Part shown: in pieces, positions 5,393 to 14,066 of the stretch
How the letters are laid out: every line of letters starts with the position of its first letter
Numbering within the stretch: position 1 is the stretch's first letter
NCBI GenBank assembly: GCA_946493765.1
Contig: CAMMAZ010000012.1
Location: forward strand, 1-48,687
Length of the DNA stretch: 48,687 nucleotides
Direction: 5' to 3'
DNA from: an uncultured Clostridia bacterium
GTDB taxonomy: Bacteria; Bacillota; Clostridia; Oscillospirales; Acutalibacteraceae
Translations under genes and position numbers: made by a program
Notes under the pieces: model-generated
What the model was told of the DNA's origin: nothing
The model's database searches: none
What the model saw: only the letters and a program-made list of their open reading frames with translations

Positions 5393-5423
5393 AGAATAAC
5401 AACGCAAACAGGAGATGACAATA

Positions 5424-6020
5424 ATGAAAATCAAAAAATGGGAAATATCTTTGCTAATCGGCTTGATTTTATGCATTCTTTTCAGTTGCATCAGTTTCAC
5501 GGCAACATGCGAAAATATTCGAGAAGACGTTTTTCGCCTTCATATTCTTGCAAATTCTGATTCAGAAGAAGATCAGAACCTGAAACTATGTGTGCGAGAT
5601 GCAATTTTGGAACAAACCGCCTATCTTTTTGAAAACAATCAGACAGTAGAAGAATCTATGCAAGCCGCAAGACAAAACCTCGATCTCTTACAAAGGACAG
5701 CCGAAGAAGTCATTGTGCAAAAAGGATTTAACTATTCCGTTCAAGTTGAAATAGGAAAAGATTATTTTGAGACCAGAACATACGGAGAAATCACCCTTCC
5801 CGCCGGAGAATATGAAGCACTGCGGATTTTGATTGGAGAGGCAAAGGGACATAATTGGTGGTGTGTGCTTTATCCTGTGATGTGCATCAATGCTTGCGGC
5901 GCAACGCCGGCAGATGAGGTGCTTTCGGAAAATGAATATGATGTCGTTCACAACAAAGATAAATATCAAATCCGCTTTAAGACTGTAGAATGGCTCGAAT
6001 CGATTTTCAATTTGTTTTAA
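5424..6020 (+). CDS. spoIIR: Stage II sporulation protein R
   Basis: A 198-aa secreted signalling protein. In Bacillus it is made in the forespore under sigma-F and triggers SpoIIGA to process pro-sigma-E in the mother cell. The N terminus has one membrane/signal segment (about residues 8-28). It is followed by the family signature VFRLHILANSDSEEDQ and LKLCVRDAILEQ. The C-terminal part (YGEITLPAGEYEALRILIG, GHNWWCVLYPVMCI) matches the conserved SpoIIR core. Start: AGGAG (5410-5414) is 9 nt before ATG 5424; an ATG at 5415 touches the Shine-Dalgarno site and is rejected. It is a single gene, divergent from panE and ended by a bidirectional terminator shared with HPr. Confidence 0.95.
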   Translation: MKIKKWEISLLIGLILCILFSCISFTATCENIREDVFRLHILANSDSEEDQNLKLCVRDAILEQTAYLFENNQTVEESMQAARQNLDLLQRTAEEVIVQKGFNYSVQVEIGKDYFETRTYGEITLPAGEYEALRILIGEAKGHNWWCVLYPVMCINACGATPADEVLSENEYDVVHNKDKYQIRFKTVEWLESIFNLF

Positions 6021-10292: not shown

Positions 10293-10991
10293 TTAAAAAT
10301 TTTTAATTTCGATCGGTGCGTCGATCGGCACAAGCTTTTTAAAAACAGCGGTATGTTTCACAGTGATCACACGATCTTCATGCACGGACCCAAAAAACCA
10401 TCGCTTGAATGTGCAGGCTTTGTTCAATTCTTCGAGATAACCGTTGAGTCGATTGACATAATTTGCCTTTCCCGCACGCAGCAGTAATGCACTTTTAATG
10501 ACGGACGGCGGCTCGTGGGTGATAATATAATCGACTTTGCAGTCGTGATTATCGATATTTTCCGCGCCTTCGGCCATTTGTTTGGGACTCGGAAGTTCTT
10601 CTCGGAACCAGACTTGATTCTCATTGCGTATATTTTTATCCGTACTTTCTCCGCCGCCGAATGTGAAGATCGTTTTCTCTTCGATGGTAAAAATCTGCCC
10701 CCGGCATAAATGAAACAGGTTCCCGGAAATTCTATGTACCCTTCCACCCTTCCAGACGGTTTCGCGATAGCTGTTGATCCGGTCAAAGTTATCGTGTGGG
10801 CCGTCGATAAAACAAATGTTATATTTTCTGGAGCCCAGATATTTTAAGAGTTTTCGTTCTTTTTTGCTGCCGTCCCAGATAAATCCGAAATCTCCGGCAA
10901 TGATAAGCGTGTCTCCACCTTTTAAACGTCGGAAATCTTTTGCATACAGACGTTCTTCGTCCCCATGCATATCTCCGGTCACATAAATCAT
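10293..10991 (-). CDS. Calcineurin-like metallophosphoesterase
   Basis: A 232-aa cytoplasmic phosphoesterase of the two-metal family. Visible motifs are GDMHGD (D-x-H ligand pair), GDFGFIWD, THEPP near the C terminus, and SVHED, where the last G-H-x-x motif would be (glycine replaced by serine). The usual GNH(D/E) motif reads GPHDN, so the metal-binding and catalytic asparagine is proline here. The substrate cannot be told; relatives in gut clostridia are uncharacterised. It lies alone upstream of ylxM with a weak ribosome site (GGGAAT). Confidence 0.8.
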   Translation of the reverse strand: MIYVTGDMHGDEERLYAKDFRRLKGGDTLIIAGDFGFIWDGSKKERKLLKYLGSRKYNICFIDGPHDNFDRINSYRETVWKGGRVHRISGNLFHLCRGQIFTIEEKTIFTFGGGESTDKNIRNENQVWFREELPSPKQMAEGAENIDNHDCKVDYIITHEPPSVIKSALLLRAGKANYVNRLNGYLEELNKACTFKRWFFGSVHEDRVITVKHTAVFKKLVPIDAPIEIKNF

Positions 10992-11131
10992 TTTTTATTC
11001 CCGGTCCTTTCAAAAAAATCGTCGAAAAACAAACTTTTTTATTTCAATCTGTTTTTATTTATGTTATACTGTTATTATACAATAAAAATCTTTTGTTTGT
11101 CTACTGTTAAAATCTTTCACGGAGGTTAAAA

Positions 11132-12466
11132 ATGAAAAAACGCAGCGCAATTCTTTCTTTCTTTCTCATTTTGATCTTTGTTTTATCACCGGTCGCCGCC
11201 AGCGCTTATGATATAACCGGCAGCGGTTTTACAATTACGTCTAAAGTTGCACTGCTTGTGAGTCTGGACACCGGCGAAATCATTTATTCGACGGATAAAG
11301 ATTCCGACACAGTCAAAACAACCGATCAAAAATATCAGCCTGCCGCACTGACCAATTTGATGACGGCTGTTGTTGTGTTGGAAAACTGCGAGGATATCGA
11401 CACACAAGTCACTGTGACATCGGATGAGATCGACCCACTGCTTGGCACCGGTGCTGCAGTTGCCGGACTCAAAGAAGACGAAAAAATCACTGTGCGCAGC
11501 CTTTTGCACTTGATATTGATGGGGTCTGCCGCTGACGCTTCCAACGTGCTGGCCGACTTTATCGGCGGAGATATCGATTCATTTGTTGCCATGATGAACG
11601 AAAAAGCAGCAGATTTATCTATGGATTCCACCCATTTTGTCAATGCGCACGGCCTTTCGGAAGATAATCAGTATACAACTGCTAATGACCTATATAAACT
11701 TGCCAAATATGCATTAGATCTTCCGATGATTATGGAAATCTGCGAGAAAACCCGCTATGATCTGCCGCAAACGAATCAAAACAGCGCTCGTGTCGTCTCC
11801 ACGACAAATATGCTGATTGATCCCACAACGTCCTATTACTATACCTATGCCAAAGGCATGAAAACAGGCTATTCCAGCGAATCCGGGCGCTGCCTGATCT
11901 CTACCGCTTCCAAAGACGGATATAACTATATGTGCATCATTCTCGGCGGAGATAATGCAACACGGTCTGAATTTACCGATTCAGAAAATCTGTATCGGTG
12001 GGTCTTTGACGAATATGAATATCGGAAAGTGGCTGATACCGCAACACAGATCGGTGAAATGGAAGTGGAGCTTGCGTGGGACACGGATTATATTCAACTG
12101 TTCCCCGAACAGGATGTTTCCGCCATTGTCCCGAAAAACATCGATAATTCCAGCATTCGTTATGAATTGGTAACCGATCAATCGGTTTGGGCGCCGGTTG
12201 AAAAAGGTGAAATCATGGGAAAAGCCGTCATTTACTGTGCAGAGAACCAGATCGGCGAAGTGAATGTCGTGGCAGGTGAAACAATCAAACGCAATCAGCT
12301 TTTATTTATCGCCAAAATTTTTAATATCATTGTCACATCTAAAATTTTTATCGGTTTTGTCGTGGTTCTTGTTCTGCTGCTTATCGGATTGATTGTTACG
12401 AACATTTTTCATCAAAAGCGCAAACGCGGGCGGAACAAAAAAGTAAAACCCATTCGAAAATTATAA
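11132..12466 (+). CDS. DacA-like (peptidase S11) protein with degenerate active site
   Basis: A 444-aa envelope protein with a signal peptide (residues 1-25, cut near ASA-YD), a D-Ala-D-Ala carboxypeptidase fold and a C-terminal anchor helix (about 403-425) followed by a basic cytoplasmic tail. The family's SxxK motif reads PAALTNLMT: serine is Ala72 and lysine is Asn75. The SxN motif reads GSAAD, with the asparagine replaced by Ala134. Only KTG (244-246) is kept. The fold landmarks FVNAHGLSEDNQYTTANDL and AKGMKTGYSSESGRCL are intact, so the protein is likely folded and inactive as a peptidase or beta-lactam target. GGAGG precedes the ATG. It probably binds peptidoglycan or regulates an active paralogue (inference). 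Confidence 0.88.
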   Translation: MKKRSAILSFFLILIFVLSPVAASAYDITGSGFTITSKVALLVSLDTGEIIYSTDKDSDTVKTTDQKYQPAALTNLMTAVVVLENCEDIDTQVTVTSDEIDPLLGTGAAVAGLKEDEKITVRSLLHLILMGSAADASNVLADFIGGDIDSFVAMMNEKAADLSMDSTHFVNAHGLSEDNQYTTANDLYKLAKYALDLPMIMEICEKTRYDLPQTNQNSARVVSTTNMLIDPTTSYYYTYAKGMKTGYSSESGRCLISTASKDGYNYMCIILGGDNATRSEFTDSENLYRWVFDEYEYRKVADTATQIGEMEVELAWDTDYIQLFPEQDVSAIVPKNIDNSSIRYELVTDQSVWAPVEKGEIMGKAVIYCAENQIGEVNVVAGETIKRNQLLFIAKIFNIIVTSKIFIGFVVVLVLLLIGLIVTNIFHQKRKRGRNKKVKPIRKL

Positions 12467-12480
12467 TCTAACAACATGGT

Positions 12481-12513
12481 AAAAAGCGAACAGTTTTTAG
12501 CTGTTCGCTTTTT
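12481..12513. terminator. Bidirectional terminator between dacA-like and ABC-F genes
   Basis: A 13-bp perfect stem (12481-12493 with 12501-12513) with A- and T-tracts at the ends, serving the converging genes. The right edge touches the ABC-F stop codon. Confidence 0.9.
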
Positions 12514-14066
12514 TAGTCGAAAAGTTTTTCAAAATCCAGCGTTTGCTCCGCAATCTGCTGGCAAAATTCCTTGCTGTGAGAAACAAATAAAACAGCGCCC
12601 TCAAACAGCTGGATCGCTACCTTTAACTGCTCAATCGCATTGACGTCCAAATGGTTGGTCGGTTCATCCAGCACCAGAAAATTATAATTTGAAAGCGTCA
12701 ATTTGCATAATTTCACTTTGGATTGCTCCCCGCCGCTTAAGGTTCCGATTTTCTGCAAAGCAAGTTCACCAGACAGCCCGCACCGTGATAAAGCGGCGCG
12801 CACCTCCTTATCGTTCATCCGCGGATACTCGTTTTTGATCTCCTCTACCGCGGTTCGGTTCTCGTCTTCCCAGCGATTTTCCTGCTGGTAATAACCGATT
12901 TTAATTTGTTCTGCCAGCACAAACTCGCCGGAAAGCGGCGGAATGATCCCACAGATCGTTTTGATAAATGTCGATTTGCCGATCCCATTAAAGCCGGTTA
13001 CCGCCATTTTTTGTCCGACACGCAATTCCATTGTGATATCCGGCACCAGCTGATCGTCATAACCAATCCCCAAACGGTCTGTTTTTAAAATCACCTGACC
13101 GACCGCCGGTGTGTAGGAAAACAAAAAACTGGGTTTTGGGGTTTTTCCGGGTTTTGTGATCTTTTCCATTTTCTCCAGCTTTTTTTGCCGGCTTTTTGCC
13201 ATTTTGGAAGTCGAAGCACGCACAATATTTTTATCAATATAAGTTTGCAGTTTTTCGATTTCCTTTTGCTGAGCATGATAATTTTTTAATTGTTCCTGCC
13301 GCTTGATTTCCTTTAATTTGACAAAACTCTGATAGTCGCCGTTAAAGCGGGTGATTTTTCCATTTTCAATATCGCAGATGCAATTGACGACATCGTTTAA
13401 AAACGCAAAATCATGGCTGACCAAAATAAAAGAACCTTTAAAAGTTTTTAAAAACTTCGTCAGCCAAGCGATATGTTCCCGATCCAAAAAGTTTGTCGGT
13501 TCATCCAGAAGCAGCACATCGGGTTTTAAAAGCAGCAATTTTGCCAGCATGACCTTTGCACGCTGCCCGCCGCTTAACGTTGTCACATCGTGATCGAGAC
13601 CGAATGCAGTGATGCCAAGTCCTGCCGCCACCTTTTCGATCTCGCTGTTGATTGCGTAAAAACCACCACTTTCCAATTGTTCCTGCAGCGCGGCAGATTG
13701 TTCACACAATGCCATTGCCTGCTCATTATCGGAACAAGCGCTAATCTGTTGATTCATACTTTGAAGCTGTTCCTCCAGCCGATATAAATCGTTGAACGCC
13801 TGGTTCAAATAGGCTTTGACCGTTATCGATTCCCGAATACTTGCCTGTTGATCCAAATAACCGTATTTAATTTTGGGATTCCACTTAACATATCCTTCGT
13901 CCGGAACGACCTCCTCAATCAAAATATTTAAAAAAGTCGTTTTTCCGGCGCCGTTTAAACCGGTCAACCCCATCTTATCGCCGCGAAACAATTGCATATT
14001 CGCTTTATTAAATAATGTTTTATCGCCATAAATATGCGTTAAATTTTTAACGTCCAAAATACTCAT
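12513..14066 (-). CDS. ABC-F family ATPase (ribosome-associated)
   Basis: A 517-aa cytoplasmic protein with two ATPase domains and no membrane segment. Domain 1 has GLNGAGKTT (39-47), LSGGQRAKV and LLLDEPTNFLD. Domain 2 has GFNGIGKST, LSGGEQSKV and LVLDEPTNHLD. The linker (about 240-310) is charged and helical (KNIVRASTSKMAKSRQKK), as in ABC-F proteins that reach the ribosomal P/E site. The size and the YLDQQ/YYQQE Q-loops resemble the YkpA/YbiT group, which act on translation. An antibiotic-resistance role cannot be excluded but nothing points to it. It has a consensus promoter at 14099-14127 and a short leader without an attenuator. Confidence 0.9.
   Translation of the reverse strand: MSILDVKNLTHIYGDKTLFNKANMQLFRGDKMGLTGLNGAGKTTFLNILIEEVVPDEGYVKWNPKIKYGYLDQQASIRESITVKAYLNQAFNDLYRLEEQLQSMNQQISACSDNEQAMALCEQSAALQEQLESGGFYAINSEIEKVAAGLGITAFGLDHDVTTLSGGQRAKVMLAKLLLLKPDVLLLDEPTNFLDREHIAWLTKFLKTFKGSFILVSHDFAFLNDVVNCICDIENGKITRFNGDYQSFVKLKEIKRQEQLKNYHAQQKEIEKLQTYIDKNIVRASTSKMAKSRQKKLEKMEKITKPGKTPKPSFLFSYTPAVGQVILKTDRLGIGYDDQLVPDITMELRVGQKMAVTGFNGIGKSTFIKTICGIIPPLSGEFVLAEQIKIGYYQQENRWEDENRTAVEEIKNEYPRMNDKEVRAALSRCGLSGELALQKIGTLSGGEQSKVKLCKLTLSNYNFLVLDEPTNHLDVNAIEQLKVAIQLFEGAVLFVSHSKEFCQQIAEQTLDFEKLFD

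Follow-up and report, generated by a model that had tools for sequence, protein, structure and literature searches.

DD-carboxypeptidases have been investigated both as enzymes and as targets of penicillin, and E. coli PBP5 is attached to the membrane by an amphipathic helix. The Ser of the SxN motif belongs to the S11 catalytic triad (PMC9953012). Wild-type Streptomyces K15 DD-transpeptidase carries a Cys at the position of the SxN Asn (compare the C98N mutant entry 1es4), so some active S11 enzymes can do without this Asn. Two secreted Clostridia proteins, CspC and CspA of Clostridioides difficile, are pseudoproteases whose catalytic residues have degenerated and which are themselves retained for a signalling role (PMC6636752). 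In E. coli PBP4 (DacB, family S13), the S62A variant binds no Bocillin, and the inactive protein still localises to midcell (PMC9166362).

The gene considered here lies at 11,132–12,466 (+ strand) of the window, by which we mean the whole 48,687-nucleotide stretch of DNA from an uncultured Clostridia bacterium that was analysed. It starts with ATG and encodes a DacA/PBP5-like protein of 444 residues, in which Pfam recognises PF00768 Peptidase_S11 (150.2 bits; cut-off 27.6) followed by PF07943 PBP5_C (44.5 bits; cut-off 21.2; residues 295–387, 12,014–12,292, + strand). The score against the NCBIfam DacA/DacD equivalogs falls short of their cut-off (best 119.9 bits against 610). An AlphaFold2 model (mean pLDDT 78.4), built from the window protein and six relatives from public genomes, resembles PBP5 with its class A beta-lactamase-like fold (VIA Z 35) and superposes on the K15 DD-transpeptidase with a Z of 34.3 and an rmsd of 1.7 Å over 251 residues. 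By sequence and predicted fold, the window protein is thus an S11 protein of the PBP5 type.

The motifs of the active site tell a different story, as the preliminary description had noted in reporting an S11 fold with A72-L-T-N75 and S-A-A134; codons, Pfam and the AlphaFold2 model all agree with that report. Motif I (11,345–11,356, + strand) replaces SxxK, with GCA for A72 (11,345–11,347) and AAT for N75 (11,354–11,356), both read directly and placed by alignment. Motif II (11,525–11,533, + strand; codons TCT GCC GCT) reads S132-A133-A134 instead of SxN, and motif III (11,861–11,869, + strand; codons AAA ACA GGC) is an intact K244-T-G246. The same description held that only KTG survives, which is right about KTG and overlooks the retained SxN Ser, S132. 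Further cleft changes, S108A, S109A and H180Q, fall at sites conserved among intact orthologues. Compared with a catalytic S11 DD-carboxypeptidase or PBP, the predicted protein therefore lacks both SxxK and SxN and keeps KTG, and it is well supported that this is a real pseudoenzyme, the catalytic residues being gone while the predicted fold is intact. As the nucleophile and the general base are both gone, neither acylation nor hydrolysis is expected, and the protein would probably not be acylated by beta-lactams. That it might still act as a DD-peptidase through an alternative nucleophile or base, using S132 and K244 of the S11 active site, seems to us barely plausible: nucleophile and base are both absent, and in E. 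coli PBP4, of family S13, replacing one Ser by Ala is enough to abolish both activity and Bocillin binding (PMC9166362).

A ribosome-binding site, GGAGG (11,121–11,125, + strand), was read from the sequence, as was a predicted signal peptide, the hydrophobic signal-like segment MKKRSAILSFFLILIFVLSPVAASA (11,132–11,206, + strand). At the other end, hydropathy predicts a transmembrane helix followed by a basic cytoplasmic tail (12,338–12,463, + strand), the model placing a helix at residues 404–435, and the tail has a net charge of +10 over 21 residues. An intrinsic terminator hairpin (RNA fold −18.4 kcal/mol, z −4.5) follows at 12,481–12,513 (+ strand). The preliminary description spoke of an expressed pseudoenzyme and not of a decaying gene; the frame, anchor, terminator and ribosome-binding site bear out the absence of visible decay, but the promoter amounts to a candidate extended −10-like element picked out by eye, TGTTATACT (11,062–11,070, + strand), which is below threshold in a sigma-70 scan, and that scan found no promoter at threshold upstream of the gene. 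The gene may be expressed.

A calcineurin-like metallophosphoesterase gene (Pfam Metallophos; 10,293–10,991, − strand) is transcribed divergently from the pseudoenzyme gene. It has a promoter-like site, TAGACA-18-TATAAT (11/12; 11,074–11,103, − strand), which is a consensus match only, such matches being about as numerous as in shuffled sequence. A divergent metallophosphoesterase stands directly upstream in 152 of the 181 orthologous loci with enough flanking sequence, including 19 of 25 dead ones, and this linkage supports orthology through gene order. The conserved neighbour looks cytoplasmic and points to no mechanism. The ABC-F ATPase gene on the other side (window 12,513–14,066, − strand; 409.9 bits against a cut-off of 380 for the NCBIfam ribosomal protection-like ABC-F model) adjoins the dacA-like gene in a position that is not conserved. 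Elsewhere, the window encodes SpoIIR (5,415–6,020, + strand; Pfam Spore_II_R, 169 bits), which makes it probable that the organism forms spores or descends from a spore former.

The genome has three further S11 genes, with SITK/SAN/KTG, STTK/SGN/KTG and STTK/SGC/KTG, so DD-carboxypeptidase activity is very probably supplied elsewhere, and the first two are the active-looking S11 copies that the preliminary description had suggested looking for. The fourth S11 protein of the genome (L003, 1075–2478, + strand) has an S-G-C motif II like that of K15, between long threonine-rich stretches. In the same taxonomic family, two DD-carboxypeptidase paralogues, sampled like the window protein's own lineage, are intact in 30/30 and 27/27 sequences (57/57 together), and SxxK is retained by each of the fully read S11 paralogues that were fetched from genomes carrying a dead copy. 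These controls rule out SxxK loss as a general trait of S11 proteins in these genomes; the absence of SxxK in 22 of 95 genera for the window protein's lineage, against none of the 57 paralogues, gives a Fisher p of 1.7e-5.

That lineage is widespread. With a best match at E ≤ 1e-50 as the threshold, 364 of the family's 398 genomes and 132 of its 135 genera have an orthologue; for the order as a whole, at E ≤ 1e-45, the figure is 157 of 197 genomes. The same architecture occurs outside the family, and some of those copies are dead (PAYLAQ, PGALVD). A viral or mobile origin was rejected, there being no matches in viral contigs. A few genomes hold two or three copies of the lineage in place of one, with differing motif states (L222 and L262 in G074; L241, L263 and L264 in G073), and some orthologues have an altered KTG (KVG, KAG, RTG and KQT; L122, L138, L144 and L256), among which L122, L138 and L144 retain SxxK.

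The nearest orthologues, which are rumen metagenome assemblies going by their records, share 53% identity (another genus) or 47–48% (same genus) with the window protein and read SLTK or SITK in motif I and S-A-A in motif II. An eight-row clade that includes the window protein (branch support 99) has S-A-A in common, so N134A is ancestral there and S72A and K75N are private as far as sampled. The genome collections searched held no copy from the same species, and the A72/N75 pair is absent from all other genomes found. A conserved A/N/A triple, as the preliminary description had envisaged for the orthologous group, is rejected accordingly, since N134A is the only one of the three common to relatives.

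Private changes raise the question of error. S72A and K75N are each one base change away and were seen in a single genome, yet a sequencing or assembly fault would require two separate wrong codons in a genome of 99.78% completeness and 0.03% contamination, N134A and the further cleft changes are common to relatives or accompany A72/N75, and similar losses are seen in a dozen or more other lineages. We regard such an error as highly improbable.

The extent of those losses was gauged from an ML tree of 202 orthologues (LG+C20 PMSF, motif columns left out). SxxK is broken in 31 of them, in forms that include SLTT, SMVQ, AITS, ALVH, ALAT, GLAG, AISN, SITV and A-x-x-R, and the tree implies 16 independent losses, a figure that falls to 15 or to 12 when branches with support below 80 or below 95, respectively, are collapsed. 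A single ancient loss is ruled out by the tree and by a reduced AU test, which rejected one origin for 15 dead rows (p-AU 0.002). For motif counts, an even sample of 95 genera was used, in which SxC was not scored as a catalytic loss because the K15 DD-transpeptidase has it. SxxK is absent in 22 of these genera, and motif II has neither Asn nor Cys in 31; 19 lack both motifs, motif II alone is missing in 12, and 3 have lost SxxK but still have SxN. The split suggests that motif II is usually lost first, and where independent pairs are compared, the two losses are associated in a single direction (about 5 to 0; median p 0.06), which makes an order of motif II and then motif I suggestive. Decay was probably stepwise for the most part, the motif II Asn and adjoining cleft residues going before the Ser and Lys of SxxK, with KTG last.

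One dead clade spans nine genera (L248–L253, L255, L257 and L258) with a support of 100, mostly with A-x-x-R for SxxK and T-A-A for SxN. It is an old, stable dead S11 clade and a stronger case than the window gene. It shows 39 derived conserved residues against 1.2 in random sets, an excess that we keep only as a hint because the random sets are not monophyletic.

In the dead copies, cleft residues are mostly gone, with S72 retained in 29%, K75 in 19%, N134 in 19%, S109 in 3% and H173 in 16%, and S108 also among those lost. Core residues are nearly invariant (N156, G174, D186, Y266 and W290 in 100%, A354 and P355 in 97%, F151 in 97–100%). All 31 dead copies have the transmembrane anchor, and their median tail charge, +9, is the same as in intact copies. 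Between pairs of dead copies, dN/dS is 0.085–0.17 for the SMVQ clade and 0.27 for the old dead clade (dS is large but finite), which indicates that the dead relatives evolve under purifying selection after the loss. Conserved columns are violated on average 15.9 times in dead orthologues against 4.2 times in fully intact ones, so some relaxation is real. For the window copy, whose nearest orthologues stand at about 50% identity and are SxxK-intact, support for selection after the loss is indirect and comes from two comparisons: the copy violates 12 of the 62 conserved columns outside the motifs, compared with 11–12 in SxxK-intact sisters, and its branch in the ML tree is not longer than theirs.

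These comparisons bear on whether the species has recently lost catalysis, with the gene itself on the way out. Nearest orthologues at 47–53% identity that still have SxxK, and an A72/N75 pair found in no other genome, are what such a loss would leave, and the preliminary description had named close SxxK-bearing orthologues as grounds for abandoning the pseudoenzyme. They do exist, but we judge that they do not overturn it, because SxxK has been lost repeatedly in parallel and dead copies that evolve under purifying selection persist across genera and species. With the 444-codon frame, ribosome-binding site, terminator, signal peptide and anchor all intact, with rate and conserved-column retention matching those of the SxxK-intact sisters, and with dead copies elsewhere lasting across genera and species, a gene on its way out is, in our view, distinctly improbable.

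Another possibility is that D-Ala-D-Ala stem peptides still bind in the cleft, along the KTG strand, the protein serving as a sensor, shield or decoy for pentapeptides that competes with or regulates the active carboxypeptidases; the preliminary description had likewise considered that it could regulate active DD-carboxypeptidases, or be a peptidoglycan-binding adaptor. The window protein has not lost its KTG, the strand of which is the motif that dead copies preserve best (77% for K, 77% for T and 90% for G), and two intact paralogues are there to be regulated. However, the SxN Asn, S108, S109, H173 and H180 have also been lost in dead copies, which is unexpected if the same ligand were bound in the same way, and we consider this possibility unlikely, though less so than a recent loss.

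The retention of the core, the PBP5 C-terminal domain, the anchor and the tail, set against the loss of the cleft, favours a scaffold or adaptor over the binding of ligands in the old cleft. We therefore think it reasonably probable that the window protein is a dead S11 protein of the PBP5 type, from an order-wide lineage, that is retained for a non-catalytic role in the envelope, likeliest as an anchored scaffold or adaptor. It would be secreted and held in the membrane by its single C-terminal helix with the basic cytoplasmic tail, the S11 core and PBP5 C-terminal domain facing the wall and the helix and tail linking them to membrane or cytoplasmic partners, whose existence we infer. Two intact paralogues would carry out peptide trimming, and the function retained by the lineage would be independent of DD-carboxypeptidase chemistry. 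Both the adaptor role and the localisation are proposed on this basis. A broader proposition, about which we are evenly divided, is that the whole order-wide lineage, SxxK-intact members too, is primarily non-catalytic and acts as an envelope scaffold. This would explain why the active site can be shed, as it has been on a dozen or more occasions, and why a nine-genus clade carries a fixed A-x-x-R and T/S-A-x signature with conserved residues of its own.

The finding exceeds the window, the recurrent loss of the active site being its interesting part. A core-gene lineage that keeps its fold, wall domain and anchor and repeatedly sheds its active site amounts to a natural experiment: it separates the chemistry of PBP5-type proteins from a role that needs no catalysis, and that role can be tested in culturable relatives. 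Annotation as a carboxypeptidase or a beta-lactam target would be wrong for about a quarter of the sampled genera.

Pseudoenzymes are already known, also in Clostridia, and the S11 case is without precedent in the open-access literature searched, which describes neither S11 pseudoenzymes nor repeated losses in this lineage; a description may exist elsewhere. CspC and CspA are likewise secreted Clostridia relatives of peptidases with degenerate catalytic residues, but they have the unrelated subtilase fold and are two proteins confined to one family, not one orthologue with repeated losses. E. coli PBP4, a DD-peptidase whose midcell localisation is independent of activity, offers a precedent for a non-catalytic role, although the natural enzyme is active and belongs to another peptidase family (S13). 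The K15 DD-transpeptidase (1skf) is the closest fold match to the S11 domain alone and differs in keeping SxxK, in having Cys and not Ala in motif II, and in being without the PBP5 C-terminal domain. The PBP5-type DD-carboxypeptidases (DacA, PBP5, PBP6 and B. subtilis dacB, 3mfd) share with the window protein the fold, the order of S11 and PBP5_C, the signal peptide and C-terminal membrane attachment, whereas the window protein has shed the Ser, the Lys and the SxN Asn and has a predicted bitopic transmembrane helix with a basic cytoplasmic tail.
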